Positions 28,081 to 64,000 of a stretch of 64,000 bases of DNA are shown piece by piece. The notes below the pieces were generated by a model. The model saw only the letters and a program-made list of their open reading frames with translations, made no database searches and was not told where the DNA came from. Origin of the DNA: Nostoc carneum NIES-2107 (lineage in GTDB: Bacteria; Cyanobacteriota; Cyanobacteriia; Cyanobacteriales; Nostocaceae); assembly GCA_002368155.1 (NCBI GenBank), contig AP018180.1, positions 7,682,561 through 7,746,560 on the forward strand, given 5' to 3'. Numbering within the stretch: position 1 is the first letter of the stretch; each line of letters begins with the position of its first letter. The translations under genes and the position numbers were made by a program.

Positions 28081-31000
28081 ATGACTCAATATGTCCAAGA
28101 TTTAGAAGCAATGGTCTGTAATTGTTCCACGTTAGTAGAACTGCTGCGTTATCGGTCTGTTGAGCAAGCAGATACGACAGCATTTACCTTTTTGCACGAT
28201 GGAGAAGCACAAGCAGTTAGTCTAACTTATCAACAGTTAGATTGCTATAGTCGAGCGATCGCATCTCAACTACAAACCCTTGGTTTAAGCGGTGAGCGTG
28301 CTTTACTACTTTATCCACCAGGAATAGATTACTTACCAGCCTTCTTTGGGTGTCTATATGCAGGAGTGGTAGCAGTTCCAGCTTATCCGCCACGCAATCA
28401 GCGCAACACTCCCAGAATCTTGGCAATTATCAAAGATGCACAACCAGCAGTTATCCTGACAACAACAGCAATTCTGACCCAGTTGCAGTCTTTGCTTGCT
28501 GATAAATTTGCCATAGAGCATATTCACTGGCTGACTACCGACAACCTCACACCAGGTTTAGCAGCAACTTGGCAACAGCCGTCTATTAATATAGATACTC
28601 TGACATTTTTACAATACACTTCTGGCTCTACTGGCACACCCAAAGGTGTGATGCTGACTCATGGGAACCTGCTACACAATGCAGAGGTAACACGCCAGTA
28701 TATGGAACACACTTCCCTTAGTAAGTTTGTGACTTGGCTGCCTGTTTACCATGATATGGGATTGATAGGCGGCGTACTGCAACCTCTATATGCGGGTTTT
28801 CCTTGTATTATGCTGCCACCAGCAGCTTTTCTCCAACGTCCTTATCGGTGGTTACAGGCGATTTCTCGTTATCGCGGAACTACCAGTGGTGCTCCCAACT
28901 TTGCCTACGAACTTTGTATTGAAAAAATTACCCCCGAACAACGCTCTACCCTAGATTTAAGCAGCTGGAATGTGGCTTTTAATGGAGCAGAACCAATTCG
29001 TTATGAGACTTTAGAGAGATTTGCAGACACTTTTGCTGAATGTGGGTTCCGTCCAGAAGCTTTTTATCCTTGTTATGGTATGGCAGAGGCTACTTTGATG
29101 GTATCTGGTAGCGTCAAATCTGCGTTAGTAAATAGCATATCTTTGCAAAGAAGCGCTTTAGAGCATAGTGAAATTGTGAATTCTGTTGCTAACACAGATA
29201 ACTCAATTACATTAGTCAGTTGTGGTCGAGTTGTACCACAACAGGAAATTGTTATTGCTAACCCAGAAACCTTAACCCGTTGCAATGCTGATGAAGTCGG
29301 AGAAATTTGGGTGTCTGGGACTAGTATTGGTCTTGGTTATTGGAATCGTTTAGAAGAAACAGAGCAGACGTTTCACGCCTATTTGCAAGATCCAAAAGAG
29401 GGGCCATTTTTGCGAACTGGAGACTTAGGTTTTCTGCACAATGGCGAACTTTACATTACTGGCCGAGCTAAAGATTTAATTATTATCAGAGGACGCAACC
29501 TTTACCCACAAGATATAGAATTGACGGCAGAACGCAGTCATTCCTCCTTGCGTCTGGGTAGTAATGCTGCTTTTGCAGTAGACATAGACAATGAAGAACG
29601 CTTGGTAGTGGTGCAAGAGTTGGAGTTTCGCGCCAAACCTAATTTAGAAGAAGTTACTACTGGAATTCGACAGACTGTAGCGCAAGAACATGAGGTACAA
29701 GTTTATGCAGTTGTTTTAATTAAAGCTGGTACTATTCCTAAAACCTCCAGTGGTAAAATTCAACGCCGTGCTTGTAAGGCAGAGTTTCTAGCAGAGGGTT
29801 TGCAAGTAGTAAATCAGAGTATTCTCGATATTGGGGAAGATTTAGAGAGCAGAACGGTAGAAGATGAGAGTTCGCTGCTCACATACTTGCAAAAATTGAT
29901 TGCCAAAGCGTTAAAAATTCCAGTTCAAAAAGTACAATCCCAACAGCCTCTAACAACTTTGGGTATTGATTCCTTGAGCGCTTTTGACCTCAAAAATCAA
30001 ATTGAGGTAGATTTTGGAGTCAGTATATCTGTAAATGACCTTTTACAAGATGCCACTATTGAGTCCCTAATAGAACAAATTCTGGCTCAGGGGAAAAATA
30101 GTACTCTAAAACAACTAGAAATCAGACCTATTTCCCGTAAAGCACAACTACCCTTGTGTTTAGCCCAAGAAAGATTGTGGTTCTTAGAGCAATTAGAACC
30201 AGGAAATCCATTTTACAATGTAGCGATCGCCATCCAACTCGATGGGACTCTCAACGTGGCAATTCTCCAGCAAAGTCTTAATGAAATTGTCCAGCGTCAC
30301 GAAAGCCTACGCACCAGCTTTACATCTGTAGTGGGACAACCAGTGCAAATCATTCATCCTAGTTTGGAAGTGAAACTTGCGATCGCTGATTGTACTCACC
30401 TTGATGATGCCACATCTAGAGAAAAGTTGATTTTGGGGGAAACTCAAAAACCCTTTGACCTATCCCAAGCACCATTGCTACGCGCTAAACTGTTGTGTCT
30501 AACAGACAATCAACATTTGCTGCTGTTGACCATGCATCATATTATTTCTGATGGTTGGTCAGTTGGGGTTCTTATCCAAGAACTAGCAACAGTGTATCAA
30601 GCTTTCATTGCAGGTAAACCTTCTCCCTTACCTGAACTACCAATTCAATATGCTGATTTTGCTTACTGGCAAAAACAATGGCTGCAACAACAGGTTTTAA
30701 AAACCCAACTTGATTATTGGAAGCAACAACTCAACAACAGCGTCCCTTTATTACAACTACCCACAGATAGACCTCGTCCTTCTGTTCAAACCTTTAGAGG
30801 TAAAAAGCACACTCTGACATTACCTAAAAATCTGAGTGCAGCAGTGAAAGATTTGAGTCATAAAGAAGGTGTTACCATCTTTATGCTACTCCTAGCAACT
30901 TTCCAGACATTACTCTATTCTTTGTCAAATCAAGAAGACATTATTGTTGGTTCTCCTGTTGCTGGGCGTAACCATTACAAAACACAAGGATTAATTGGTT

Positions 31001-31554
31001 TCTTTATCAATACTTTAGTACTGCGTACTAATCTGAGCAGGAATCCTACTTTTAGAGAATTATTAGGGCGAGTCAAAAAAGTAACTATAGCAGGCTATGC
31101 CCATCAAGATGTACCTTTTGAAAAGCTGGTAGAAGAGTTACAGCCAAAACGTAATCTCAGCTATAATCCTTTGTTCCAGGTAATGTTTATTTTCCAAAAT
31201 GCAGCCATACCATCGATTGAACTGCCTGAATTAAATTGGCAACCCAAAGAAGTAGATAGCGGCACATCAAAATTTGATTTAAAACTTAGTCTTTGGGAAA
31301 GCACAGACGGATTTCAAGGTTCATTAGAATATCAAACAGATTTGTTTAATGCCGCGACAATCAGGCGCATGGCAAATCATTTTGAACTCTTGCTACAAAC
31401 TATAGTTAATCAGCCAGATATTGCATTGCAAGATTTAGCAGGTATTGTTACAGCATCAGATAAACAGCAAAAACTGCTAGAAGAAAAACAATTAGAAACT
31501 ATCAGTCTGCAAAAACTGAAATTAAGCAAACGAACTGCAATTAGCAAAGGATAA
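28081..31554 (+). CDS. Lipopeptide starter protein: FAAL-ACP-C
   Basis: About 1157 residues. The N-terminal about 580 residues are a fatty-acyl-AMP ligase (FAAL): LVELLRYRSVEQADTTAFTFL, YTSGSTGTPKGVMLTHGNLL, NGAEPIRYETLERF, GRAKDLIIIRGRNLYP. It loads a fatty acid onto the following carrier protein (about 600-685, Ser in LGIDSLSAF). The C-terminal domain (about 695-1140) is a condensation domain with an intact HHxxxDG motif (MHHIISDGWS), which joins the acyl chain to the first amino acid. The protein stops after C with no adenylation domain; that is supplied by the protein at 32688. I prefer the ATG at 28081; a GTG at 28027 would add 18 residues. This gene begins the biosynthetic operon, and the oxygenase follows 15 bases later. 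Confidence 0.93.
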   Translation: MTQYVQDLEAMVCNCSTLVELLRYRSVEQADTTAFTFLHDGEAQAVSLTYQQLDCYSRAIASQLQTLGLSGERALLLYPPGIDYLPAFFGCLYAGVVAVPAYPPRNQRNTPRILAIIKDAQPAVILTTTAILTQLQSLLADKFAIEHIHWLTTDNLTPGLAATWQQPSINIDTLTFLQYTSGSTGTPKGVMLTHGNLLHNAEVTRQYMEHTSLSKFVTWLPVYHDMGLIGGVLQPLYAGFPCIMLPPAAFLQRPYRWLQAISRYRGTTSGAPNFAYELCIEKITPEQRSTLDLSSWNVAFNGAEPIRYETLERFADTFAECGFRPEAFYPCYGMAEATLMVSGSVKSALVNSISLQRSALEHSEIVNSVANTDNSITLVSCGRVVPQQEIVIANPETLTRCNADEVGEIWVSGTSIGLGYWNRLEETEQTFHAYLQDPKEGPFLRTGDLGFLHNGELYITGRAKDLIIIRGRNLYPQDIELTAERSHSSLRLGSNAAFAVDIDNEERLVVVQELEFRAKPNLEEVTTGIRQTVAQEHEVQVYAVVLIKAGTIPKTSSGKIQRRACKAEFLAEGLQVVNQSILDIGEDLESRTVEDESSLLTYLQKLIAKALKIPVQKVQSQQPLTTLGIDSLSAFDLKNQIEVDFGVSISVNDLLQDATIESLIEQILAQGKNSTLKQLEIRPISRKAQLPLCLAQERLWFLEQLEPGNPFYNVAIAIQLDGTLNVAILQQSLNEIVQRHESLRTSFTSVVGQPVQIIHPSLEVKLAIADCTHLDDATSREKLILGETQKPFDLSQAPLLRAKLLCLTDNQHLLLLTMHHIISDGWSVGVLIQELATVYQAFIAGKPSPLPELPIQYADFAYWQKQWLQQQVLKTQLDYWKQQLNNSVPLLQLPTDRPRPSVQTFRGKKHTLTLPKNLSAAVKDLSHKEGVTIFMLLLATFQTLLYSLSNQEDIIVGSPVAGRNHYKTQGLIGFFINTLVLRTNLSRNPTFRELLGRVKKVTIAGYAHQDVPFEKLVEELQPKRNLSYNPLFQVMFIFQNAAIPSIELPELNWQPKEVDSGTSKFDLKLSLWESTDGFQGSLEYQTDLFNAATIRRMANHFELLLQTIVNQPDIALQDLAGIVTASDKQQKLLEEKQLETISLQKLKLSKRTAISKG

Positions 31555-31569
31555 AAACTTTTTACAATT

Positions 31570-32604
31570 ATGACCATTTCCAATGCCTCAAAACCTAGCC
31601 TGAAAAGTTTAGGTATTTCTAAACGTCAAGCTGTCAAGGATTTAGTGCATATCGCACCCTTGATAGATGAAAATTCTTTGCCATTATTGATAAAAGCAAC
31701 TGTTGAAGGAGTAGATTTAGTTGCTTGGGCTGCGAACAATCAAGAATTGATTAAAAAATATTTACTCAAGCATGGTGGTATTCTATTTCGTAACTTTCAA
31801 GTTAAAGAAGTAGCTGAGTTTGAGCAGTTTATTAAAGTAGTTGCTGGGGATTTACTAGAATACCGCGATCGCTCTTCACCTCGCAGTGCAATTCAAGGTA
31901 AAATCTACACATCTACAGACCATCCAGCCACCCAAAAAATTCTGCTGCACAGCGAAAACTCCTACGCTGCTAACTGGCCTTTAAAAATATTCTTTTACTG
32001 TGTCACACCAGCACAACAGGGCGGAGAAACACCCATCGCTGACATTCGCAAAATTTATCAAAGGATTTCTCCCAAAATTATCGAAAAGTTTGCTCAAAAA
32101 CAAGTCATGTATGTCCGCAATTTTGGCGATGGTTTTGGCTTAACTTGGCAAACTGTTTTTCAAACCACAAATCCTGAAACAGTAGAAGAATTTTGTTACC
32201 AAAATAATATAAAATTTGCATGGAAAGGAAAAAATAAACTCAGAACTTACTCTCATCGTTCTGCCATAACCAGGCATCCAATCACAGGGGAAACTGTTTG
32301 GTTTAATCATGCTTTATTTTTCCACATTTCTAGCTTAGAAATGGCGATTCGTGAGTCATTATTAGCAGAATTTAGCGCTGAAGACTTACCACACAATACA
32401 TATTACGGTGATGGCTCACCAATTGAGCCAGAAGTATTAGAGGAGATTCGTAGTGCTTACGAACAAGAGACAGTAATATTTCCTTGGTTAACAGGAGATA
32501 TTTTAATGTTGGACAATATGCTGACTGCTCATGGAAGACAACCTTTTTCCGGTAACAGAAAAGTAGTTGTGGGTATGGCAGAACCATACAATAGCCAAAA
32601 TTAA
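31570..32604 (+). CDS. TauD/clavaminate synthase-like Fe(II)/2-oxoglutarate oxygenase, stand-alone (TauD-1)
   Basis: The product is 344 residues. Metal ligands are the HxE pair in LLHSENS (His about 126) and a distal His in TAHGRQPF (about 319), with the Arg of GNRKVVVGM for 2-oxoglutarate. The HxE rather than HxD form and the block GGETPIADIRK are typical of the SyrP/clavaminate-like group that beta-hydroxylates amino acids while tethered to an NRPS carrier protein. It lies between a terminal C domain and an inactive condensation-like domain. That is the setting described for interface-type siderophore beta-hydroxylases. It is more like the oxygenase at 62474 (both have YR.R.SPR....G.IYTSTD) than the fused one at 40431. 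The substrate is therefore probably the amino acid loaded by the next A domain. Confidence 0.9.
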   Translation: MTISNASKPSLKSLGISKRQAVKDLVHIAPLIDENSLPLLIKATVEGVDLVAWAANNQELIKKYLLKHGGILFRNFQVKEVAEFEQFIKVVAGDLLEYRDRSSPRSAIQGKIYTSTDHPATQKILLHSENSYAANWPLKIFFYCVTPAQQGGETPIADIRKIYQRISPKIIEKFAQKQVMYVRNFGDGFGLTWQTVFQTTNPETVEEFCYQNNIKFAWKGKNKLRTYSHRSAITRHPITGETVWFNHALFFHISSLEMAIRESLLAEFSAEDLPHNTYYGDGSPIEPEVLEEIRSAYEQETVIFPWLTGDILMLDNMLTAHGRQPFSGNRKVVVGMAEPYNSQN

Positions 32605-32687
32605 TTTAACTAGGAAGATATCAAAGGAAGCAATTCGGGAATATTTTTTTGCTTCTTGTTCTCAACTTATCTGGAAGTCTATTAACG

Positions 32688-35600
32688 ATGTTTCAAGAAA
32701 TTCAAGGTTTTCAACTTTCGCCACAACAGAAATATTTATGGCAACTACAACAATCTGATAGTCGCTTATATCAGGTTAAAGCTGCTGTTTCCATTACCGG
32801 AAACCTGAATATTCAATTACTCAAAAATGCTGTAGAGAAAGTTGTCAGCCGTCATGAAATTCTGCGTACATCTTATAAGTGTCTCCCAGGAATGACAATT
32901 CCTGTACAAGTAATTACTGATTCTGGGGCTAATTGGCAGCAAAATTATGATTTAAGCAATTATACAAAGGAGGAGCAAGCAGAAAAAATACAAGAGTTGT
33001 TTCAGCAATTTGGTCAACAAGATTTTAATCTAGAGACTGGAGCAGTTTTACATATATCTTTGGTAACTTTATCTGCTAGTAAATATATTTTATTTATCCG
33101 TTTACCTGGATTATCTGCAGATAGAGAAACACTGAAAATTTTAGTAAGAGAAATCAGCTATACTTATGCTTATAAATATGATAATCATGAAGAAATAATG
33201 CAATATGCTGACTTGGCAATGTGGCAGAATGAATTATTGTCAGCAGTAGATACAGAAGCAGGTAGAGAATATTGGACTAAGCAAGATTTTTCGGCTTTGC
33301 AAGCGTTACAGCTACCTATAGAAAAAGAGAATGTTGCAGAACTAGTCTTTGAGCCTAAAACTCATAGTTTCCAGGTAGATGCTCATTTGGTATCTCAAAT
33401 AGAAACACAGCATCAATCTTCATTAGCTAATTTCTTCTTAGCTTGCTGGAATATTTTACTGTGGCGCATTGCAGGACAAGATAATCTGATTCTTGGTCTA
33501 TATACAAATGGACGCAAATATCAAGAACTAGAATCGAGTCTAGGGTTATTATCTAAATATGTGCCTTTAAAATGCGAATTAAAAGAGGATATAACTTTAT
33601 CTTTTTTATTAAATAAGCTTAATCAAACTATTACCAAAAGTTATAATTATCAGGAGTATTTTAGTGCAGATATATTAACAAAACTATCTGCAAACAACCA
33701 AGATATTTTCCCAATTTATTTTGATTATGATGAAATTATAGAAAAGTATAATTGTGCAGATGTATCATTTTCAATAGAACAATTAGATGCTTGGATTGAC
33801 AACTATAAAATCAAACTAGCTTGTATTCGCCGAGAAAATTTAATTGAGCTAGAAATTACATATAACAGTAATTATTTTTCCCCAGCAGATATTCAACGTT
33901 TAGCAGAACAGTTACAAACATTAATCGAGAATGCAATTTCCTCCCCTGAAACAGCTATAAGTCGATTACAGATAGTCAGCAACAGCGAAATTAATCTCCT
34001 ATCTCAGCTAAACAAGACCAAACTAACTTACCCTGTTGATCATTGCATTCATCATTTATTTGAAGAGCAAGTAGCAAAGACACCCGATAAAGTTGCGATC
34101 GCCTTTGCTGAAAAACAGCTAACATACAGAGAATTAAACAATCGTGCCAATCAAATTGCTCATCATTTGCAACAATTGGGAGTGGGTGCAGAGGTATTAG
34201 TAGGGTTGTGCGTCGAACGTTCCCTAGATTTTGTCCTGGGGATTCTTGGTATTCTCAAGGCTGGTGGTGCTTACGTACCATTAGACCCCACATATCCCCA
34301 GGAACGCTTGGAGTATATGTTGCAGAACTCGCAACCAAAAGTGTTATTGATGAAAGAGTTTTTAATTAAAGAATTACCAAAAAATTCAACCCAAGTAGTT
34401 TGTCTAGATACAGATGGAGATTTAATTGCTCAACAACCAAGAGAAAATTTACATCAAACAGCTGTTGCGGCTAACTTAGCTTATGTAATTTACACCTCTG
34501 GCTCAACAGGTACACCCAAGGGAGTCAGAGTTACCCATGCTAATTTGTGCCACTATGTCCAAGCAATGCAAACAGCATTGGGTATTGTAGAGGAAGACAA
34601 ATATTTACATACAGCCTCAATTGCTTTCTCATCTTCCGTTAGACAGTTGATGGTTCCTCTTACCAAGGGTGCAACTGTAGTAATTGCCACTTCCGAACAG
34701 CGCAAAGACCCCTTGACACTGTTTGCGGAAATTAAACAACAACAGGTGACAGTAATTGATATCGTTCCCTCTTACTGGCGGAACTGTAATCATTTAATAA
34801 ATAGTTTAAAACCAGAGGTAAGAACAAATCTTTTAGACAATAAATTACGCTTAATTGTCTCTGCTAGTGAACCTCTACTATCAGATATTTGCACTCAATG
34901 GCGGTTTGGTTTGCAGCACAACGCAAGTCTCATCAATATGTTTGGTCAGACAGAAACTTGTGGTATTGTAGCAGTCAATCCCATTGCTCAAGATGACCAA
35001 ATAAAAATTGTCCCTCTTGGTCGTCCGATTGCTAACACCCAAATCTATATTTTGGATAAATATCTGCAACCTGTGCCGATGGGAGTGGCTGGAGAATTAT
35101 ATATTGGTGGCTTAGGTATTGGTCAAGGTTATCTCTATCGCCCAGACTTGACAGCTGAGAGATTTATTCCCAACCTCTTTAGTGAAGAACCAGGAACGCG
35201 GCTTTACAAAACGGGGGACTTAGGACGTTACTTACCAGATGGTAAAGTTGAATTTATTGGCCGTAGCGATTACCAAGTTAAAATTCGTGGCTTCCGTATT
35301 GAACTTGCAGAAATTGAAGCTACGCTTTGTCAACATCCATCTGTGCGGGAAGCTGTAGTAGTAGCGAGGGAAGACTCAGGAGAAAAAAGATTAGTTGCTT
35401 ATCTAGTACCTAACGAGCAGAGCCTTCAGGATGCCAACTTAGGTAACTATCGCAGTTTCTTACAAGAGAGATTGCCTGATTATATGATGCCTGCTAACTT
35501 TGTGATGTTGGAGGCGCTACCACTAACACCTAATGGTAAAGTCAACCGTCAAGCATTACCTACACCAGAACAAGTAAGACTGCAAACGCACTCACAAAAA

Positions 35601-41432: not shown

Positions 41433-41628
41433 TTGGTATCTCAATCAATAAAGACAGCGATTATTCTTATTGATTTGATAATTTCTAGGAAATTAGGCGA
41501 TTTAAATTTGATTTAAAACTTCAATTTTTATGTGGAAAATTTCCGCATATTAGGTGGATGCTGAAGAGCCATAATTTAACGAATGGAAATTAAGATGATG
41601 TCAAGTAAATCATTAGGAGAAAAATTTT

Positions 41629-42378: not shown

Positions 42379-42409
42379 CTCAGTGTTCTTGAATAAATAG
42401 CAGAAACAA

Positions 42410-45634: not shown

Positions 45635-45661
45635 CTAAATCACGAAATTTAGAAACTTAAT

Positions 45662-48472: not shown

Positions 48473-48503
48473 GTAAATTATTAAATATTAAATTTTTAGA
48501 AAA

Positions 48504-53624: not shown

Positions 53625-53713
53625 AAACCCGAGCTAATCATCAATAAGATGTACTGATTACGAATAGAAAATCTAACCACAGAGGCACAGAGTTCATAGA
53701 GGAATTATAGAAA

Positions 53714-56700
53714 ATGGAAGGTTCAGAGATAGCAATTATTGGTTTATCAGGACGTTTTCCTGGTGCGAAAAATATTGAAGAATTCTGGCAGAATTTACAA
53801 GCGGGTAGAGAAACAATTACTTTTTTTACAAATGAAGAACTGATAGATTCAGGGATAGATCCAGTTTTAGTGGATCATCCTAAATATGTGAAAGCTAGAG
53901 GTGTATTAGCAGACGCAGAATTTTTTGATGCATCCTTTTTTGGGTTCACTCCTAGAGAAGCAGAAATTACCGATCCGCAACATCGACTGTTTTTAGAATG
54001 TGCTTGGTCAGCTTTAGAAAATTCTGGCTACAATCCAGAAAGTTATTCTGGTACAATTGGCGTTTATGCTGGTAGCGGTTTGAGTGGCTATCTATTTAAT
54101 GTTTATACTAATGAAAATATTCGTAATTCTGTTGATTTTCACCAAATAACAATTGGTGGAGATAAAGATTATTTAAGCACTCGTGTTTCTTATAAATTCA
54201 ATTTACAAGGGCCAAGTTATACTGTTCAAACTGCCTGTTCAACTTCATTAGTTGCAGTTCATTTAGGATGTCAAAGTCTCCTAAATGGAGAATGTGACAT
54301 GGCTTTAGCTGGTGGTGTTTCTATCAGTGCATTACGCAAACATGGCTATTTTTATAAAGAAGGGGGCATAGGTTCACCTGATGGACATTGCCGCGCCTTT
54401 GATGCCAAAGCACAAGGAACCGTTGGCGGTGAAGGTATGGGCGTTGTGGTGTTAAAGAGATTAGAAGATGCGATCGCAGATCGAGATACTATCTATGCAG
54501 TAATTAAAGGTTCCGCCATCAATAACGATGGTTCACAAAAAGTCAGCTTTACAGCACCCAGTATTAATACTCAAGCTCAAGTAATTAAAACTGCTCAAGC
54601 TGTCGCCGAAGTTGCGCCCGAAACTATCACCTATATTGAAGCCCACGGTACGGGTACATCTTTAGGCGATCCCATTGAAATTGCGGCTTTAACTGAAGCT
54701 TTTCGCGCCAATACCGACAAAACAGGCTTTTGTGCTATAGGTTCTTTAAAAACCAACACTGGCCATTTGGATGCGGCGGCTGGGGTGGCAGGTTTAATCA
54801 AAACTGTTTTAGCTCTCAAGCATCAAAAAATCCCAGCCAGCTTACACTTTGAACAACCCAATCCCCAAATTGATTTTGTCAATAGTCCCTTCTACGTCAA
54901 TACTCAACTCACTGATTGGCAAACAAACGATACTCCCAGACGCGCGGGGGTGAGTTCTTTTGGTATTGGGGGAACAAATGCTCATGTGATTTTGGAAGAA
55001 GCACCCTTTGTAGAGCAGGGGAGCAGTTCGCTGAAAGCGTTCCCGCAGGGTGGAGCAGAGGAGCGGAGGAGAGAATATCAGTTTTTGGTAATCTCTGCAA
55101 AGACTGCTACAGCTTTAGAGACTGCGACGCAAAATTTAGCTAACTATCTTCAGCAAAATCAAGATTTAAATGTGGCTGATGTCGCTTACACTTTGGCGGT
55201 AGGTCGTAAAGCTTTAGAACATCGGCGGATTTTGGTTTGTCAAAATCTGGAAAATGCGATCGCAATCCTAGCATCTCCAGATAGTCCAGAAGTTTTTACC
55301 CATTATCAAAAACCCTGCCATCGTCCAGTGGTGTTTATGTTTCCGGGACAGGGTTCTCAGTATGTGAATATGGGGCAAGAACTTTATGAAACTGAACCAT
55401 ACTTTAGAGAACAAGTTGACTATTGTGCGGAACTCCTCAAACCACATCTAGGTTTTGATTTGCGTGATGTCATCTATCCCAATGCAACGCAGACTCAAGA
55501 ACTAACACAAACTGCCATCACCCAGCCTGCTTTATTTGTGATTGAGTATGCTTTAGCAAAATTATGGATGAACTGGGGTGTCCGTCCAGAAGCGATGATT
55601 GGTCATAGCATCGGGGAATATGTCGCAGCAACTTTGGCAGGGGTTTTTAGTTTAGAAGATGCTTTAAAGTTAGTTGCTCATCGCGGACGTTTGATGCAAG
55701 AACTACCCGGTGGTGCGATGCTCTCGGTGCAGATGGGAGAGTCGGAAATTCAACCTTTTTTGGCTGTAGAATTGGCACTAGCGGCAAGTAATTCACCATC
55801 AAGCTGTGTAGTTTCCGGTACGATAAATGCGATCGCCAAATTAGAACAGCAATTACAACAGCAAGGTATAAATTATCGCAGACTGCATACATCTGGTGCT
55901 TTTCATTCGCCCATAATGGATGCGATGATTGAGCCATTTACGAAGCTGTTACAACAAATCAGCCTGCAACCTCCGCAAATTCCTTTCATCTCCAACCTTA
56001 GCGGTACATGGATAAGGAAAGAAGCAGCTATAGACCCCAATTATTGGGCAAAACATCTACGGCAAACTGTACGCTTTAGTGATGGAATTGCCAAGTTACA
56101 AAAGCAACCAGAACGCATCTTTTTAGAAGTGGGTCCTGGAAAAACTTTAAATACCTTTGTCAAGCATCAAAAACTAGAGGTAGTAACACTCACCTCGCTA
56201 CGTCATCCCCAAGAACAAAAATCAGATATAGCATTTATATTTAATACTTTGGGTCGTCTGTGGTTGCAAGGAGTAAAAGTTGATTGGTCGAGTTTTTATA
56301 GCCATGAAAAACCCTACCATATTCCTTTACCTACCTATCCTTTTGAGCGTCAGCGTTATTGGGTAGAACCACAACAACAGGGATTTAAAGCAGAATTTAC
56401 AACTAACGAACTGTGGAAATCTGTAGTCGAAATTGGCAAAAAACAGGCTCAAACACAGTTACTTGAGCGAGAAATGTATTTAAGTAATAAACAGTGTTTA
56501 GATAACTTATGCCTTGCTTACATCAACTTAACTTTGCAAGATTTAGATATTTTTAAAGATGCTGTGACTAAGTATTCTTTTGAAGAAATATATGAGCAAA
56601 GCCGCATTATTTCTCGCTATCGTCAGTTATTGTATCGTTGGTTAGATGTATTAGTAGAAAACGGTTATTTACAGCAAGAACAAGGGCTGTTTAGCAACTT

Positions 56701-59518
56701 GAAGCCCATATCTAATGATACGGTTAATGCTCTTTTAAATGAATCTAGGTTAAAATTGGCAAATTTACCACAATTAGTAGATATTGTTGCGGAATGTGGA
56801 GCCAATTTAACATCTGTACTTAGAGGGAAAATAGAACCTTTAGAATTGTATTTTTCAGTTAGTAAAAAAAGAACAGAAAACACAAAACCAGAAGTTCCCA
56901 TAGATACCTATTTAAAAGGTATTATGCAGGCAAGTTTAGAGCAGATAGTCAAATTATTACCACCAAATGTCAACCTGAGAATTTTAGAAATTGGAGGTGG
57001 ACAAGGAATTGCAAGCACAGCTTTATTACCTATATTACCTAGAGAAAGAGCAAGCTACACCTTTACTGATGTGGGTGGTTTATTACTAAATAAAGCTCAA
57101 GAAAAGTTTAGTAGTTATCAATTTGTTGAATATCGTTTTCTTGATATCGAAAAACCTCCTAGTGAACAAGGATATGCTCCCCACAGTTTTGATGTAATCA
57201 TTGCTGTGAATGTTTTACACGTTACTCGTAATATTGGTAAAACTCTTGAAAATGTACGCTCTTTATTAGCGTCAGGAGGTTTATTATTGCTATGGGAAAT
57301 CACAGAAGTCCAATTAAATTTTGATATCACTGATGGTTTGTTGATGAATCCTTTAGAGGATGCACAACGTAGTCTTGGTAATCCATTTCTATCTCAAAAA
57401 CAGTGGTGTGCAGCATTAAAAACGCATGGATTTATTGAAGTAGCGGCGATTTCTGAAACAGAAGTATTCGGTGAGGAAATTTTAATTGCTCAAGCTACTA
57501 CAACTGATTCTGCACCTGCGGCATTTAGTACATTTATTAACAATAAACAAAGTACAGATAATCAGGCTTTCATAGGTAAAAAACCTAACATTGCTGACTG
57601 GTTTTATATTCCTACTTGGAAACGTGCTTCGTTACCCCAGCGTTTACCAAATGAAATCAGAACAACTCAGTCGCAATGCTGTTTAATGTTTGTAGATGAG
57701 TGCGGTTTCGGTGAAAAAATAGCCACGCGATTGAGATTAGAGGGTGGGGATGTAATTACCGTCAAAGTTGACGAAAAATACACTTGTCAGAGCGATCGCT
57801 CATATACAATTAACCCAGAACAACCACAAGACTACAAGTTTCTATGCGAAGAACTTCGCACATTAGGTAAAATTCCCACCAACATTATTCATTTATGGAA
57901 TGTTACGCCAGATAATTTAGAGAAGTTTACACCACAACAGTATGAATCCTTGGGCTTTTACAGCTTAGTGTATCTTGCTCAAGCGATCGCAGAATTTTAT
58001 CAAAAAGATAGCTTACATATTCAAGTCATTACCAATCACCTGCAAATGGTGACAGGTTCTGAACAACTATGTCCAGAAAAAGCATTGATAATGGGGCCTT
58101 GTAAAGTAATTCCACAAGAGTATGCCAATATTACTTGTAGCACCATTGATGTAGTTCTTCCCACAACAGATAGTTGGCAAGAACAGCAACTAATCAACCA
58201 ACTACTCACAGAAATTTCTCTGCAAACACCTGAACAAGTGATTGCTTATCGAGGAAATCATCGTTGGGTGCAGGATTTTGAAGCTATCAAATTAGACACC
58301 TCGATTCAGGAAAATCAACGTTTAAGGAAAAACGGAGTATATTTAATTACAGGCGGTTTGGGCGGTGTTGGACTAGTTTTAGCCGAGTATCTAACGAAAA
58401 CTGTACAAGCTAAATTAATTTTAGTGGGGCGATCGCCTTTTCCTCAACCAGATGAATGGAAGCAGTGGCTATCAACCCATGATGCACAAAATGTAATTAG
58501 CCAAAAAATCCAAAAATTGCAAAATCTGCAAGCTTTTGGTGCAGAAATAATGGTAGCTAGCGCTGACGTTGCTAATTATGAACAAATGTCAGCAGTAGTT
58601 AAAAAAGCCAATTTGCAATTTGGTCAAATTAACGGAGTAATTCATGCAGCCGCAGTTTTAGGTGGAGGTATAATTCAACTCAAAACCAAAGAAATTGCAG
58701 CTGATGCTTTAGCGCCAAAAGTCCAAGGAACAAGAATTCTAAATCAGATTTTTCAAAATACCAAGCTTGATTTCTTTGTACTTTGTTCCTCACTTTCTTC
58801 CTTTGCAGGTACATCAGGAATGGTAGATTATACTGCTGAAAATGCCTTCTTAGATGCCTTCGCTCACTATCATGCTGTACAACATAGTAATTTCATCACT
58901 TCTATTAACTGGGATAGATGGCAAAGTGTAGGAATGGCAGTTGCAGTTGAAGAAAGACACAAAGATATCACAGGAGAAGAATTAACAGCAGGAATGACTG
59001 TGGAAGAGGGTATTGAGGCATTCAATCGAATTTTATCTAGTAATAATTCGTCTCAAATTGTTGTTTCCACACAAGATTTGCATAGCCAGCTTCAGCCCAA
59101 TAAATCTCATAAATCCATAGAAGAACAATTAGCCAAACTCAACCAAGCTAGGGCAACTTATCCCCGTCCAAACTTAGATAATGCCTATGTTGCTCCTCGC
59201 AACGAAATTGAAATTACCCTAGCTAATATTTGGCAACAACTTCTGGGTATTGATCGTGTGGGTATTCATGATAATTTCTTTGAATTAGGAGGAGATTCTT
59301 TATTTGCTACTCAGCTTGTTTCTCAATTGTGCAAAAGCTTTCAAATAGAACTTTCCTATAAGGGCTTTTTTAATTCCCCGACTGTAGCTGAATTAGCTGA
59401 ACTTATTGTCCACAATCTAGCTAAAAAGGCAGAACAAGAAGAGCTAGCAAAAGCCTTATCAGAAATCGAGCAGCTTTCAGAAGAAGAAGTACAGGAACTT
59501 CTTGCTTGGCAGAACTAA
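53714..59518 (+). CDS. Type I PKS: KS-AT-C-methyltransferase-KR-ACP
   Basis: The product is 1934 residues. KS (3-425): Cys in VQTACSTSLVAVH, His in EAHGTGTSLGDPIE and KTNTGHLDAAAG. AT (530-830): GHSIGEYVAA with GAFHS, malonyl type. A C-methyltransferase domain (about 1000-1270) has ILEIGGGQGIAS and a LLLLWEITEVQ strand. The ketoreductase (about 1300-1730) has TGGLGGVGLVLAEYL and the catalytic Ser and YTAEN tyrosine-asparagine motif. The ACP (GGDSLFATQ, Ser about 1858) is followed by a charged helical tail that may dock the next C domain. The unit should add a C2, methylate its alpha carbon and reduce the ketone to an alcohol. There is no dehydratase or enoylreductase. A repeat insertion lies in the KS-AT linker (55011-55076). 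Confidence 0.94.
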   Translation: MEGSEIAIIGLSGRFPGAKNIEEFWQNLQAGRETITFFTNEELIDSGIDPVLVDHPKYVKARGVLADAEFFDASFFGFTPREAEITDPQHRLFLECAWSALENSGYNPESYSGTIGVYAGSGLSGYLFNVYTNENIRNSVDFHQITIGGDKDYLSTRVSYKFNLQGPSYTVQTACSTSLVAVHLGCQSLLNGECDMALAGGVSISALRKHGYFYKEGGIGSPDGHCRAFDAKAQGTVGGEGMGVVVLKRLEDAIADRDTIYAVIKGSAINNDGSQKVSFTAPSINTQAQVIKTAQAVAEVAPETITYIEAHGTGTSLGDPIEIAALTEAFRANTDKTGFCAIGSLKTNTGHLDAAAGVAGLIKTVLALKHQKIPASLHFEQPNPQIDFVNSPFYVNTQLTDWQTNDTPRRAGVSSFGIGGTNAHVILEEAPFVEQGSSSLKAFPQGGAEERRREYQFLVISAKTATALETATQNLANYLQQNQDLNVADVAYTLAVGRKALEHRRILVCQNLENAIAILASPDSPEVFTHYQKPCHRPVVFMFPGQGSQYVNMGQELYETEPYFREQVDYCAELLKPHLGFDLRDVIYPNATQTQELTQTAITQPALFVIEYALAKLWMNWGVRPEAMIGHSIGEYVAATLAGVFSLEDALKLVAHRGRLMQELPGGAMLSVQMGESEIQPFLAVELALAASNSPSSCVVSGTINAIAKLEQQLQQQGINYRRLHTSGAFHSPIMDAMIEPFTKLLQQISLQPPQIPFISNLSGTWIRKEAAIDPNYWAKHLRQTVRFSDGIAKLQKQPERIFLEVGPGKTLNTFVKHQKLEVVTLTSLRHPQEQKSDIAFIFNTLGRLWLQGVKVDWSSFYSHEKPYHIPLPTYPFERQRYWVEPQQQGFKAEFTTNELWKSVVEIGKKQAQTQLLEREMYLSNKQCLDNLCLAYINLTLQDLDIFKDAVTKYSFEEIYEQSRIISRYRQLLYRWLDVLVENGYLQQEQGLFSNLKPISNDTVNALLNESRLKLANLPQLVDIVAECGANLTSVLRGKIEPLELYFSVSKKRTENTKPEVPIDTYLKGIMQASLEQIVKLLPPNVNLRILEIGGGQGIASTALLPILPRERASYTFTDVGGLLLNKAQEKFSSYQFVEYRFLDIEKPPSEQGYAPHSFDVIIAVNVLHVTRNIGKTLENVRSLLASGGLLLLWEITEVQLNFDITDGLLMNPLEDAQRSLGNPFLSQKQWCAALKTHGFIEVAAISETEVFGEEILIAQATTTDSAPAAFSTFINNKQSTDNQAFIGKKPNIADWFYIPTWKRASLPQRLPNEIRTTQSQCCLMFVDECGFGEKIATRLRLEGGDVITVKVDEKYTCQSDRSYTINPEQPQDYKFLCEELRTLGKIPTNIIHLWNVTPDNLEKFTPQQYESLGFYSLVYLAQAIAEFYQKDSLHIQVITNHLQMVTGSEQLCPEKALIMGPCKVIPQEYANITCSTIDVVLPTTDSWQEQQLINQLLTEISLQTPEQVIAYRGNHRWVQDFEAIKLDTSIQENQRLRKNGVYLITGGLGGVGLVLAEYLTKTVQAKLILVGRSPFPQPDEWKQWLSTHDAQNVISQKIQKLQNLQAFGAEIMVASADVANYEQMSAVVKKANLQFGQINGVIHAAAVLGGGIIQLKTKEIAADALAPKVQGTRILNQIFQNTKLDFFVLCSSLSSFAGTSGMVDYTAENAFLDAFAHYHAVQHSNFITSINWDRWQSVGMAVAVEERHKDITGEELTAGMTVEEGIEAFNRILSSNNSSQIVVSTQDLHSQLQPNKSHKSIEEQLAKLNQARATYPRPNLDNAYVAPRNEIEITLANIWQQLLGIDRVGIHDNFFELGGDSLFATQLVSQLCKSFQIELSYKGFFNSPTVAELAELIVHNLAKKAEQEELAKALSEIEQLSEEEVQELLAWQN

Positions 59519-59566
59519 CTCTTTAATCAAAACAGACAATTTTCTGTAAATTTTTGAGGTAATTTT

Positions 59567-60742
59567 ATGCTCAGTATGTACGGAGTAAATGCTAAAAAAT
59601 ACTTGGCATTATTATTGCTATGCCAACTTGGATTTTTAGTTATTGGAATGCTTTCTATCTTTGTTTATGTAATTAAAATTGATGGAATTTTGGATATTCC
59701 AAACTCAGTAATTTCTCTGTTGTTATGTGTTTTATATGCAATATCTACTTTCTGGATAGGATTATTTTGGGATTCTTTCACAAAGACTATTTTTAGCGTT
59801 TATGCTTCAAAAAAAGCTTTTTTCCAAGAGCGCTTTATTCTACCAATTTTACTCTTATGCCTGCTTGGAGCCTATGCAACTCATGGGATACTACTAACGA
59901 AGCAATTCAGCAATTTTTTAATAGTTAGTTTGTCCCCTATATTCTTAGTTGGTATATTAGCAACAATTGCAACAATTATAACTATTGGTATAGTTATAAA
60001 AGAGATACTCAACGATAATAAAACATACATACAAAGCCAAAATAAACTTGCCGAACTTAGGAACAAATTTGGTTCAAAAGCTATTAAAAGAATTGAAACT
60101 TCTATCGCTCTTGCTTATAACGAAGCATTTGCCAATCCACTTCCGCCTTCACAAGGCTTTACAGTGATAGGTATAACTTCTAAACCCTGGTATGAGAGCA
60201 GCGATTTACCCAAGGCAAAATTGCTGGAGGATAATTATGAAATAATTAAACAAGAAGCTCTTCAAGCTATGGAAAATAATACTCTACTAAAACCATATAA
60301 CTACTCAGGTGTTAAAGTCAGCGGATGGGATTATGTTGAATTAATTCAAGCAGGTAAAAAGGTAGACAAGAGTATTATATGTTTCTCAAAAACACTGGAA
60401 TTATTAGAACATATCTCAAGCTATACAAGGCTAGAAACTGTAGAACTATCAGTTATCAAACCTGGGGAAACTGTTAAACCTCACCGCGATCCAGCAAGTT
60501 CTTTTATAGTTTGTCAACTCGGTCTTTCTATTCCTGAGAATTGCGGTATTAGCGTTGGTGGAGAGTCGCGGACTTGGGAAGAGGGCAAGTGTTTATTCTT
60601 TGATCCATCCTATGAACATACAGTGTGGAATTATAGTGATAAACCTAGAGTAGTTCTGCTTGTAGTTTTTTACAAGCCTGATCTAACCAATATCGAAAGA
60701 GACATTTTACATATGCTTGAGTTTGGTGAATTTCCTTCTTGA
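59567..60742 (+). CDS. Membrane-anchored aspartyl/asparaginyl beta-hydroxylase-like (LpxO-like) oxygenase
   Basis: The product is 391 residues. Four hydrophobic spans (about residues 8-33, 42-63, 86-108 and 115-146) are followed by a soluble domain. Its motifs are KPGETVKPHRDPASSFIV, GGESRTWEEGKCLFFDPSYEHTVWN and KPRVVLLVVF: an HxD pair, a distal His and the 2-oxoglutarate Arg of the Asp/Asn beta-hydroxylase family, which includes LpxO. It is thus a non-haem iron hydroxylase unlike the TauD-type enzymes around it. A GAGGT site lies eight bases before the ATG. Membrane anchoring is odd for an NRPS tailoring enzyme. It could act on the acyl tail or on the peptide during export. Its substrate is unknown. 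Confidence 0.85.
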   Translation: MLSMYGVNAKKYLALLLLCQLGFLVIGMLSIFVYVIKIDGILDIPNSVISLLLCVLYAISTFWIGLFWDSFTKTIFSVYASKKAFFQERFILPILLLCLLGAYATHGILLTKQFSNFLIVSLSPIFLVGILATIATIITIGIVIKEILNDNKTYIQSQNKLAELRNKFGSKAIKRIETSIALAYNEAFANPLPPSQGFTVIGITSKPWYESSDLPKAKLLEDNYEIIKQEALQAMENNTLLKPYNYSGVKVSGWDYVELIQAGKKVDKSIICFSKTLELLEHISSYTRLETVELSVIKPGETVKPHRDPASSFIVCQLGLSIPENCGISVGGESRTWEEGKCLFFDPSYEHTVWNYSDKPRVVLLVVFYKPDLTNIERDILHMLEFGEFPS

Positions 60743-60907
60743 AAAGGTAACGTACACATAAGCGTATAATTGCCATTTAACTACAGTTACAGCAAACATT
60801 CAACATAGAATAACTTTGCCGGCTGAAATTGTAAAGCATATTCCACTGCTGTTTATCAATTTTACGTAGTTAATTTATAGCTCGTTATCATGAACTGAAC
60901 TGCAAAA

Positions 60908-62470
60908 ATGAATGAATTTTTTGAACGAATAGCTGCTCTTTCTCCAGAAAAATGCAAGCTTCTGCTGCAAAAACTGAACAATAAAAAAGAAACTAATTTT
61001 TCACACACGCAAATAAAACCTCAAAATCGAGAATCAAATCGTTTCCCTCTCTCATTTGCTCAGCAGCGGTTATGGTATCTCGATCAGTTGGAACCTGGTA
61101 ATCCAGCATTTAATATATGTCAATCAATGCGGTTGACAGGTTTACTCAATGTAGCAGCGCTAGAACAAAGTTTTCAAGAGGTTGTGAACCGTCACGAAAT
61201 TTTGCGAACTACATTTACTGTAATTGATGGACAACCACTTCAAGTGATTAATCCTACTGTTTTATTCAAGCTCAAACTATTAAATTTACAAGAACTTTCT
61301 CCATCAAAAAAGCAGACCGAGGTTTTACGACTAGCGAATGAAGAAGCAAAATTTACCTTCAATTTAACAAAAGATTTCTTATTACGAGTCACCTTAGTGC
61401 AACTGGAAGAAACAGAGTATGCTTTGTTTGTAACAATGCATCATATTATTGCTGATGGTTGGTCTATAGGTGTTTTAATACGCGAAATTACTACTCTTTA
61501 TCAAGCATTTTCTGACGGTTATTCCTCACCACTTACTAAACTAGAAATACAATATGCTGATTTTGCTATCTGGCAGAGGAGTTGGTTAGAGGGTAAAGAA
61601 TTAGACTTACAGCTAAAATACTGGCAGCAACAACTCGATAACTCAATTACTGAATTGAATCTACCTTTTGATCACCCACGACCGGCCATTCAAACCTACA
61701 GAGGAGAACAGCAATTTTTTGTATTAGAAAAAACAGTATTAGATCGGCTGAAAATTCTAAATATTAAAGAAGGCATCACTTTATTCATGACTATTCTTGC
61801 AGCATTTAATATTTTGCTGCATTGTTACACAAATCGAGAAGATATTGTTATTGGTACTGACATTGCTAACCGAAATCAAATTGAAACTAAAGAACTAATA
61901 GGTTTTTTTGTTAATCAATTAGTGTTACGTACAGATTTATCTGGTAATCCTAGATTTCGAGAAATTTTACAGAGAGTAAAGGAGATAACTCTTGAGGCTT
62001 ATGCTCACCAAGATATACCATTCCATAAGCTAGTAGAAGTTTTAAATCCTAAAAGGAATTTATCTCGCACGCCCTTATTTAACGTGAAACTAGTGTTAGA
62101 AAATACCCAATCTCCCACATTAGAATTTTCTGGATTGGTAATCAACTCAATTCCAACTAACAAAAAAACTTCTCAATTTGACCTGCTGCTAGAATTAAGT
62201 GAAACAGAGCAAGGATTATGTGGTTTATGGGTTTACAGTACAGATTTATTTGAAACCGCCACTATTGCTCGCATGTCAGCAAATTTTCAAGTACTGCTTA
62301 CCAAAATATCTGCACACCCAGAAACTCATTTGAGTGAACTTAAAGATATTCTTTCAGAAGTAGATAAACAAAAAATTCAAGCTCAAACAGAAAATTATGA
62401 AAGTTGTATTAAGGATAGTTTAAAAGCTATTAAGCGTAGAAACAACGATAAATTAACAAGCATTATATAA
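60908..62470 (+). CDS. Stand-alone NRPS condensation domain
   Basis: The product is 520 residues. A short N-terminal helix (NEFFERIAALSPEKCKLLLQKL, about 2-24) could dock to the preceding ACP. The condensation domain (about 40-480) has RHEILRTTF and an intact HHIIADGWS (about 178), with GFFVNQLVLRTDLSGNPRF and YAHQDIPFHKLVE later. No A or T domain is attached, and the C-terminus is a short basic tail. As it lies just before an oxygenase gene and an I-domain NRPS, it should form the peptide bond between the ACP at the end of the 53714 protein and the amino acid of the partial NRPS at 63601. This reproduces, as separate genes, the C-oxygenase-I order seen earlier. Confidence 0.92.
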   Translation: MNEFFERIAALSPEKCKLLLQKLNNKKETNFSHTQIKPQNRESNRFPLSFAQQRLWYLDQLEPGNPAFNICQSMRLTGLLNVAALEQSFQEVVNRHEILRTTFTVIDGQPLQVINPTVLFKLKLLNLQELSPSKKQTEVLRLANEEAKFTFNLTKDFLLRVTLVQLEETEYALFVTMHHIIADGWSIGVLIREITTLYQAFSDGYSSPLTKLEIQYADFAIWQRSWLEGKELDLQLKYWQQQLDNSITELNLPFDHPRPAIQTYRGEQQFFVLEKTVLDRLKILNIKEGITLFMTILAAFNILLHCYTNREDIVIGTDIANRNQIETKELIGFFVNQLVLRTDLSGNPRFREILQRVKEITLEAYAHQDIPFHKLVEVLNPKRNLSRTPLFNVKLVLENTQSPTLEFSGLVINSIPTNKKTSQFDLLLELSETEQGLCGLWVYSTDLFETATIARMSANFQVLLTKISAHPETHLSELKDILSEVDKQKIQAQTENYESCIKDSLKAIKRRNNDKLTSII

Positions 62471-62473
62471 AGT

Positions 62474-63538
62474 ATGAGAAAAACTATGAACAACTTTGAA
62501 AATTCCCAAGCTAGTATTCTCAGTCTCAAAAATATCAAACGTAAATCTGTTGCTATCTCTCTAGATGAGATGATTTCAACAGAGTTTATTCAGCCGGAAA
62601 AACAGTTTCCTCTCGTAATTAAACCAAATGTTAAAGGTATTAATTTACTGTCGTGGTCATTGAATAATCAAGAGTTCATCAAAAATGAATTATTAAAATA
62701 TACAGTAATTCTCTTTCGTGGTTTTAATGTCACTTCAATAGAAGAATTTGAGCAAATTATTGCTGCTATCTGTGGAGAAGCATTAGAATATCGTTATCGA
62801 GCCTCACCACGGACTCAAGTAGCTGGTAGAATTTACACATCCACTGATTATCCGGCTGACCAAAGTATATTCCCTCATAACGAACACGCTTATTCGCCTA
62901 TCTTTCCTTTAAAAATATTCTTCTTTTGTTTAACTCCACCAGCACAAGGAGGAGAAACACCTATTGGTAATTGTCGTCAAGTTCTCGCCAATATTGACAC
63001 CAAAATACGAGAAAAATTTATTGAAAAAAAAGTTATGTATATGCGTAACTTTGGTGATGGATTTGGCTTACCTTGGCAGACTGTTTTTCAAAGCACAGAA
63101 AAAGCCAAAGTAGAAGAATATTGCCAGAAAAACGGAATTGATTTTGAATGGAAAGAAGGCGGTAAATTAAGAACCCGTCAAGTAGGGCCAGCTATTATCA
63201 AGCATCCCATAACTGGAGAAATAGTTTGGTTTAACCATGCAACTTTTTTCCATGTTTCTACACTAGAGAGAAAAATTCGTCATTCCCTATTATCTTCTTT
63301 CAAAGAAGAAGATTTACCCACAAATACATATTACGGTGATGGTTCTGTAATTGAATCTGAAGTCTTAGAGCATCTTCGCCAAGCATATCAGCAGCAAATG
63401 GTGAGCTTTACTTGGGAAAAGGGAGATGTCTTGATGCTCGATAATATGTTAGCCATACACGCTCGCAATCCTTTTGTCCCACCAAGGAAAATTTTAGTAG
63501 GAATGGCTGAACCCTATACTCCTTCAGTTGCAGTATAG
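62474..63538 (+). CDS. TauD/clavaminate synthase-like Fe(II)/2-oxoglutarate oxygenase, stand-alone (TauD-3)
   Basis: The product is 354 residues. Ligands are HNE in FPHNEHAY (about 134) and a distal His in AIHARNPF (about 327). The R.ILVGM strand follows, and GGETPIGNCR sits between. It is closest within the window to the oxygenase at 31570: they share the YR.R.SPR..G.IYTSTD block, LKIFF.C.TP, YMRNFGDGFGLPWQTVFQ and NTYYGDGS.IE.EVLE. It starts three bases after the condensation gene stop, so the two are translationally linked. A second in-frame ATG at 62486 is possible. It probably beta-hydroxylates the amino acid carried by the NRPS starting at 63601. Confidence 0.9.
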   Translation: MRKTMNNFENSQASILSLKNIKRKSVAISLDEMISTEFIQPEKQFPLVIKPNVKGINLLSWSLNNQEFIKNELLKYTVILFRGFNVTSIEEFEQIIAAICGEALEYRYRASPRTQVAGRIYTSTDYPADQSIFPHNEHAYSPIFPLKIFFFCLTPPAQGGETPIGNCRQVLANIDTKIREKFIEKKVMYMRNFGDGFGLPWQTVFQSTEKAKVEEYCQKNGIDFEWKEGGKLRTRQVGPAIIKHPITGEIVWFNHATFFHVSTLERKIRHSLLSSFKEEDLPTNTYYGDGSVIESEVLEHLRQAYQQQMVSFTWEKGDVLMLDNMLAIHARNPFVPPRKILVGMAEPYTPSVAV

Positions 63539-63600
63539 AGGCTCATATTAACAAGAATTTAATGCCACTAATAGACGCTATTACATATAAGTAAACAGCT

Positions 63601-64000
63601 ATGGATATGCAAGCAGAAATTATGGAAGGGTTTCGACTTTCGCCACAGCAAGAGCATTTATGGTTGCTACAACAACTTGATAGTAAATCGGTGTATCGCA
63701 GCGATTGTATAATTTCAATTACAGGCAATCTTGATGGAAAACGCTTGGAATTAGCTTTACAAGATGTTGTTAATCGACATGAAATACTCCGCACCTGTTT
63801 TCGTTGTCTTCCAGGGATGACTATCCCAGTTCAGGTAATTATAAATAGCAAAGTCACTTTAGCTCCAACATACAATTTGAGCGATTTGACTACTGAGGAA
63901 CAAGATACTAAAGTTCTGGCAATTGTTCAAGATTTGAGATGTTTACCTTTTGATTTAGCAAAAGGTTTAAATTTACAGATTACTTTGATTACTCTCTCGT
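63601..64000 (+). CDS. NRPS with N-terminal interface-type condensation domain, cut by window edge
   Basis: An open frame from the ATG at 63601 runs off the right edge (133 codons). It reads MDMQAEIMEGFRLSPQQEH and continues with YRSDCIISITGNLDG, RHEILRTCFRCLPGMTIPV and a LTTEEQD segment. It aligns with the first 130 residues of the proteins at 32688 and 42410, and is nearer to the former (shared SITGNL and CLPGMTIPVQVI). By analogy it is the interface domain of an I-A-T protein, but the diagnostic lost HHxxxDG site lies just outside the window. ATG codons at 63607 and 63622 are alternative starts. A minus-strand frame over this stretch is a shadow. Confidence 0.88.
   Translation, partial: MDMQAEIMEGFRLSPQQEHLWLLQQLDSKSVYRSDCIISITGNLDGKRLELALQDVVNRHEILRTCFRCLPGMTIPVQVIINSKVTLAPTYNLSDLTTEEQDTKVLAIVQDLRCLPFDLAKGLNLQITLITLS

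Follow-up and report, generated by a model that had tools for sequence, protein, structure and literature searches.

A stretch of 64,000 nucleotides from Nostoc carneum NIES-2107 (assembly GCA_002368155.1, contig AP018180.1, positions 7,682,561 to 7,746,560; hereafter the window) carries a hybrid nonribosomal peptide synthetase and polyketide synthase (NRPS-PKS) assembly line. In this line one unit occurs three times: an active condensation (C) domain, an oxygenase (Ox) with an HxE motif, and an inactive C-like domain leading into an adenylation (A) domain. Judging by its sequence, the cluster probably makes a cyanochelin-like lipopeptide siderophore with three β-hydroxylation units of the interface-domain type. 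Its ligands would be an Asp-like residue at site 1, β-hydroxy-Asp at site 2 and β-hydroxy-His at site 3, and the chain would be released by thioester reduction. If this is true, a single scaffold holds three hydroxylated ligand sites that differ from one another.

Three repeated units

The source genome has 9.36 Mb in four contigs, and the window corresponds to G000:C1:7682561-7746560. The NRPS-PKS genes start at 28027, all on the forward strand, and extend beyond the window end; the following 20 kb (L005) complete them. The third module thus lies mostly beyond the window and was read from the genome sequence. The full order is FAAL-ACP-C / Ox1 / I1-A1-T-C-A2-T-C-Ox2 / methyltransferase / I2-A3-T / KS-AT / ACP-aminotransferase-C-A4-T / KS-AT-cMT-KR-ACP / Asp_Arg_Hydrox / C / Ox3 / I3-A5-T-thioester reductase, where I1, I2 and I3 are the inactive domains.

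The threefold repeat proposed in the initial annotation can be read in all three copies. In copy 1 the C domain (30145-31470, HHIISDG) indeed ends the FAAL-ACP-C protein (28027-31554), and Ox1, a TauD/SyrP-like oxygenase, is a separate gene (31570-32604). I1 (32703-33998) and A1 (34041-35561) follow at the beginning of the open reading frame I1-A1-T-C-A2-T-C-Ox2 (32649-41432). In copy 2 the active C domain (C3, 39036-40382, HHIVFDG) and Ox2 (40413-41426) are fused on one polypeptide, as had been described; to this we add a SAM methyltransferase gene (41629-42378) that lies between Ox2 and the I2-A3-T gene (42410-45634). The reading of copy 3 as three genes also holds, for the stand-alone C domain (60908-62470, HHIIADG), Ox3 (62474-63538) and the NRPS, with the addition that nearly all of the NRPS gene is outside the window (first 400 bases at 63601-64000, the rest at L005:662-4999).

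At the alignment columns of HHxxxDG, I1, I2 and I3 read PGLSADR, PALCADS and PAICGDT, respectively: both His are gone and the Asp is retained. All five C domains of the line carry HHxxxD, and the remaining three C-type domains are those three. In proteins with a single C or interface domain, PF00668 was matched with E-values from 2.9e-64 to 7.5e-122, so chance matches are not at issue; the bit scores were 220 for the I2 gene and 218 for the I3 gene, and the protein with I1 has three PF00668 stretches, I1 among them. Two marks of interface domains, a Condensation-superfamily sequence and the lack of a catalytic HHxxxDG, are present in all three C-like domains. All three oxygenases match PF02668 (whole-protein E-values 3.6e-48, 2.8e-45 and 5.6e-42). 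Siderophore Fe(II)/2OG β-hydroxylases of the TauD family are marked by HxD/E…H and an Arg; the motifs here are HSE, HNE and HNE, in that order, plus a distal H, and in an alignment of nine sequences the distal H and an R are invariant.

The inactive domains are of the interface type

A branch with support 100 divides a tree of 62 C-superfamily domains into 17 interface domains and 45 C and epimerisation (E) domains. Twenty interface domains had been chosen for it, of which three with ≤350 residues were left out; the 45 include six C domains directly after an E domain, and the C domains were placed as LCL- or DCL-like. Within this comparison, which covers LCL-like and DCL-like C domains and E domains but no X-type ones, the inactive domains separate as an interface-type clade. 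The grouping of these domains with functional C domains, which the initial annotation had named as the outcome that would speak against it, was not seen. Besides I1-I3 the clade holds two domains of the cyanochelin B cluster and domains from Methylocystis, Azospirillum, Pseudomonas, Variovorax, an Actinomycetes metagenome-assembled genome (MAG) and Acidobacteriota. A wider FastTree agrees; in it the heterocyclisation domain of cyanochelin B also falls outside the interface clade.

The same loss is found in a larger sample: none of 108 interface domains has either catalytic His, all 108 retain the Asp, and 100 out of 102 C domains upstream carry HHxxxD. These 108 rows are 115 pairs minus 7 in which a domain was truncated or could not be read; duplicated loci, loci replaced by joined contigs, and pairs whose next domain is an active C had been excluded earlier. 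Among the 60 matches listed out of 64 in a sequence search of solved structures, no chain is named interface domain, and 8z0q is named "Special condensation domain in NRPS".

Work by Reitz et al. in 2019 reportedly dealt with the interface domains of siderophore NRPSs. Those of the window share with them membership of the C superfamily, the lost His pair, the place beside a β-hydroxylase and the position before an A domain; the difference is that the window line has three, with three different predicted residues. antiSMASH 8 holds profiles for interface domains and β-hydroxylases.

The order active C, oxygenase, interface domain is the usual layout of such units in several phyla. An oxygenase-alignment scan of genome contigs (the best 80 of 495 relatives), together with plasmid and relative loci, gave 136 oxygenases. 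Because similarity to the oxygenase, interface or A domains guided the choice of loci, the proportions are no census. An interface domain is the next domain for 114 of the 136; the other 22 are followed by C (6), FAAL (6), another oxygenase (2) or A (1), or else by no domain within range or by the end of the locus (7). The 114 are preceded by an active C domain in 105 cases, by a locus edge in 6, by a C domain lacking the motif in 2 and by a second oxygenase in 1. The C-Ox-I order occurs in Cyanobacteriota, Pseudomonadota, Acidobacteriota, Actinomycetota and Chloroflexota, and we rejected the idea that it is peculiar to this cluster.

Residues predicted at the three sites

For each A domain nine or ten pocket positions were read, and the reading was calibrated on the cyanochelin B cluster. 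The residues of cyanochelin B are, according to PMC12628792, a Cys-derived thiazoline, Phe, Gly, β-hydroxy-Asp, Ser, β-hydroxy-Asp and a reduced Gly. The corresponding codes are DLYNLSLIW, DAWTIAAVCK, DILQLGLIWK, DLTKIGHVGK, DVWHFSLIDK, DLTKIGHVGK and DILQLGLIWK, and the reading recovers the published residues.

In the window line, A1 has the code SSRDVAMGIK, A2 (DILQLGLIWK, in the C-A2-T stretch at 35886-38984) is read as Gly by the cyanochelin B controls, A3 has the Asp code DLTKIGHVGK, A4 (DVEAIGSIGK) receives no residue call, and A5 has DSALIAEVWK. The last is given in PMC12283262 as a His code that accepts β-hydroxylation. It follows an Ox/I pair in 10/10 fetched Pseudomonas loci, and Ox3 falls within a clade of 27 oxygenases (support 99) that are all His-paired and include all 10 Pseudomonas rows. 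With Asp at site 2, His at site 3 and SSRDVAMGIK at site 1, the pocket codes led us to reject three equal sites. The earlier proposal of three hydroxy-acid ligands was thus too simple, as the predicted residues differ by site; its hexadentate chelator could still be formed by Asp, His and an Asp-like residue. Provided that the unassigned site 1 contributes a chelating residue, the three sites (Asp-like, β-hydroxy-Asp, β-hydroxy-His) could give six donors.

The oxygenase follows the loaded residue

The code DLTKxGEVGK, which we take to be that of Asn, defines a further class of units among the relatives. When A-domain classes were mapped on the trees of the 108 rows, the oxygenases required 14 class changes and the interface domains 21, against a shuffled mean of 57.5 in both cases (0/200 shuffles as low). 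In 38 thinned rows below 65% oxygenase identity, the oxygenases still required only 11 changes (shuffled mean 20.7, 0/200), and the interface domains required 19 against 20.8 (34/200). Thus, the oxygenase follows the residue of its A domain also among divergent rows, and the interface domain does not at this depth; the idea that interface domains encode ligand choice was rejected. By class, the thinned oxygenase tree is clear for Asp and His (0/500 shuffles each) and unclear for the Asn type (94/500).

We also compared pairwise distances by rank correlation in 47 thinned units of 91, bearing in mind that shared ancestry inflates these values. The coefficients were 0.45 for Ox-I and 0.40 for Ox-A (both with 0/500 permutations as high), 0.18 for Ox and the upstream C domain (15/500), 0.72 for I-A, 0.45 for I-C and 0.42 for A-C. 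As the oxygenase tracks the ligand and the interface domain beside it does not, the latter may act as a general dock and no selector.

The adenylation domain of site 1

As the whole A1 was too unspecific a query, its core segment was used. Among 217 family genomes, 21 contain relatives (22 domains, including the window's own), and stretches were fetched for the 21 other SSRD-type domains. The preceding domain is an interface domain in 11 of the 22, an ordinary C domain in 8 and no detected C domain in 3. Of the 8 ordinary-C cases four were scanned, and Pfam confirmed a thioesterase end in these; in one of the 8 the motif is absent by pattern, yet the tree places the domain among active C domains. 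SSRD codes also occur in Pyrinomonadaceae, Microcoleaceae and Acaryochloridaceae MAGs, in Streptomyces plasmids beside a TauD gene and in methanotroph plasmids.

Ox1 and I1 are as near to an Asp-loading first site (L100; 69% and 48% identity) as to an SSRD first site (the cluster of G424; 69% and 44%), and the A domain differs: the best match of A1 is 51% in L100 versus 72% in G424. Leaving other SSRD rows aside, the closest neighbour in the full trees is Asp-paired for 12/12 SSRD oxygenases and for 10/12 of their interface domains. In a thinned tree, with the close Asp rows dropped, the row nearest to Ox1 is Asn-paired. From these comparisons we infer that the A domain at site 1 may have been replaced and that its substrate is probably Asp-like.

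A further-reaching proposal, which we put forward tentatively and consider rather doubtful as a whole, is that site 1 represents a so far undescribed A class (SSRD; Ser235, Arg239, Asp278), which is present in cyanobacteria, in a MAG of Acidobacteriota and on plasmids of Streptomyces and of methanotrophs. It may give an Asp-type hydroxylase a non-canonically oriented Asp-like acid, e.g. one activated at its side-chain carboxylate, and thus a new chelating residue; exchange of whole C-Ox-I-A units would repeatedly have changed which ligands a single siderophore scaffold carries. Arg239 may be a mark of side-chain carboxylate activation; the side-chain-activating A domains of microcystin and ACV biosynthesis have it. 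In the literature searched, we found neither the codes of such side-chain-activating A domains (microcystin, ACV) nor SSRDVAMGI or SSRDLAMGI, and a search of solved structures with A1 returned general A-domain relatives only.

Small clusters with an SSRD A domain in a C-A-T-TE protein were seen at three loci (L062, L063, L065). L063 and L065 have an additional A domain with the code MGRHIGGTVK or MGRHVGGTVK, and in L062 a TauD gene is next to the SSRD protein. In two Streptomyces plasmids (L180, L182) an SSRDLAMGI A domain is accompanied by a TauD gene, a P450 and proteins with condensation domains.

Siderophore reading and its alternatives

In the proposed mechanism, the A domain of each unit would load its residue onto the T domain. 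The dead interface domain would dock the oxygenase on the loaded T domain, where a C domain would sit, and the oxygenase would hydroxylate Cβ of the T-bound residue; both docking and chemistry are taken over from what is expected of the families. The active C domain of the preceding polypeptide would then join the residue to the chain, which would leave the line by thioester reduction, with transamination as the probable next step, as a product expected to bind iron.

The genes next to the line fit this proposal. A transport and regulation cassette at 7019-27398 comprises, by Pfam, two FecCD permeases, an ABC ATPase, two AraC regulators, three TonB receptors, two PF01497 binding proteins, an ABC exporter and an MFS protein. 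According to PMC12971057, a siderophore cluster is called when two of PF00593, PF01032 and PF01497 are found near an NRPS, and all three families are present upstream of the line. The siderophore setting that had been proposed for the cluster, with its flanking TonB receptors, FecCD permeases and PF01497 proteins, is thus borne out. These genes speak against a hydroxylated lipopeptide with another function, e.g. an antifungal, whose hydroxyls would serve other ends, and so does the occurrence of the same unit in the cyanochelin B cluster, the product of which is a shown siderophore. Such compounds do exist (turnercyclamycin is a non-metallophore lipopeptide with β-hydroxy-Asp according to PMC12971057), and in our case we regard one as quite improbable. 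It is hardly conceivable that the inactive domains are ordinary C domains decayed in a degenerating cluster: a missing catalytic His pair would be expected of decay, but the domains form one supported clade across several phyla with the Asp always kept, the reading frames are long and open, and a separate active C domain stands upstream of each unit.

A closer rival holds that all three sites are β-hydroxy-Asp, SSRD being a second solution for recognising Asp and the His-type code being misread. The nearness of Ox1 and I1 to Asp-loading partners, and that of SSRD rows in general, favours it for site 1. Against it stand the reported His code of A5, the all-His clade around Ox3 and the Asn-paired neighbour of Ox1 in the thinned tree, and overall we consider it unlikely. 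Several observations also weigh against the three-ligand siderophore itself. A1 lacks Asp235, so the residue at site 1 may be non-chelating, and the methyltransferase gene inside unit 2 could mask a ligand. The main His clade leaves out 5 of the 32 His-paired oxygenases. A related cluster (G293, L057) has the order SSRD/His/His, and its third interface unit is preceded by a C domain but by no oxygenase gene. Finally, among the thinned rows the interface domains show no visible ligand specificity.

Proposed exchange of units among related clusters

The order of ligand codes differs between related clusters. SSRD/Asp/His is found in the window and G424, SSRD/His/Asn-type in G304, G428 and G433, and SSRD/Asp/Asn-type in G298 and in G336, whose contig begins inside unit 1. 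G337 shows SSRD/Asp before its contig ends, and G315 (L077, L175, L176) has four interface units, SSRD/Asn-type/Asp/His. In G293, another oxygenase of the line may serve the third, His-coded unit.

We compared the window with G304, which is of the same genus, by the best matches of 600-base steps. Between 28.0 and 37.6 kb identity was 88-95%; from there it was 65-80% up to 52.0 kb (5 steps unmatched), 83-97% up to 61.0 kb (1 unmatched) and 65-77% up to 70.0 kb (4 unmatched), where it returned to 89%. The blocks of low identity are where units 2 and 3 lie. Domain by domain, identity drops from 90% in the C domain before A2 to 67% in A2, and from 82% in Asp_Arg_Hydrox to 60% in the C domain of unit 3. 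For 37.26-41.42 kb (A2-T-C-Ox2) the best match in the plasmid collection is 81.4%, in Nostoc sp. NIES-3756. From these blockwise differences and the differing ligand orders, we read the pattern as the outcome of recombination that exchanged ligand units blockwise; unequal rates would be an alternative cause. If exchange is the cause, close relatives hold natural replacements of single ligand units (Asp, His, Asn-type) that show where such units may be cut and joined.

Additionally, the source genome has a second cluster on a 231 kb contig (G000:C4, about 47,500-62,500; L010, L011), with a fused C-Ox, an interface domain-A pair (DAHITTHVV) and a DSALIAEVW A domain. It is split over several reading frames and resembles the cluster of Trichormus variabilis plasmid C.

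Comparison with known pathways

The nearest described pathway is that of cyanochelin B (Leptolyngbya sp. NIES-3755, plasmid AP017310). The two share a FAAL start, an NRPS-PKS lipopeptide line, a thioester-reductase end, siderophore transporters and C-Ox-I-A-T units in both fused and separate form. They differ in that cyanochelin B has two Asp units and a thiazoline from a heterocyclisation module, while the window has three units with SSRD, Asp and His codes. The two β-hydroxy-Asp modules that mark cyanochelins are not found in the window line, which has one clear Asp (A3), one His (A5) and A1 without a residue call; nor is a heterocyclisation module for thiazoline or oxazole, every C-type domain being either an HHxxxD C domain or an interface domain. 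Cyanochelin A is said to contain an oxazole.

Pseudomonas pathways of the histicorrugatin/ornicorrugatin type (IBH_His) are alike in the His-coded A domain behind an oxygenase and interface domain in all 10 fetched loci, whose product type is presumed, and in the clade that Ox3 shares with their oxygenases. They belong to another phylum, have another backbone and lack an SSRD site in the stretches examined. The classes CyanoBH_Asp1 and CyanoBH_Asp2, cyanobacterial β-hydroxylases of β-hydroxy-Asp siderophores, are like Ox1-Ox3 by description; they (PMC12971057) and the cyanochelins are already published. Lactuchelin has two hydroxy-Asp and a TauD gene in a Pseudomonas (PMC12904278); no mention of His was found for it, and it was not used as evidence. 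No description of three-unit clusters was found in the literature searched, and an earlier one may exist. New here are the observations that oxygenases follow the A class in divergent rows and interface domains do not, the blockwise identity to a relative of the same genus, and the varying ligand orders among relatives.

Other parts of the line

Between units 2 and 3 lie KS-AT (45662-48472), ACP-aminotransferase-C-A4-T (48504-53624) and KS-AT-cMT-KR-ACP (53714-59518). They are followed by an Asp_Arg_Hydrox (PF05118) protein (59567-60742) that is outside the unit grammar, adjoins unit 3 and has a hydrophobic N-terminus. It is present in the window, G304, G433, G424 and G315 and not in G293, G428 and G298. 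Methyltransferase genes recur in or beside hydroxylation units: downstream of the thioester reductase gene lies a second piece, of 131 residues (L005:5128-5523), and then a class III aminotransferase.

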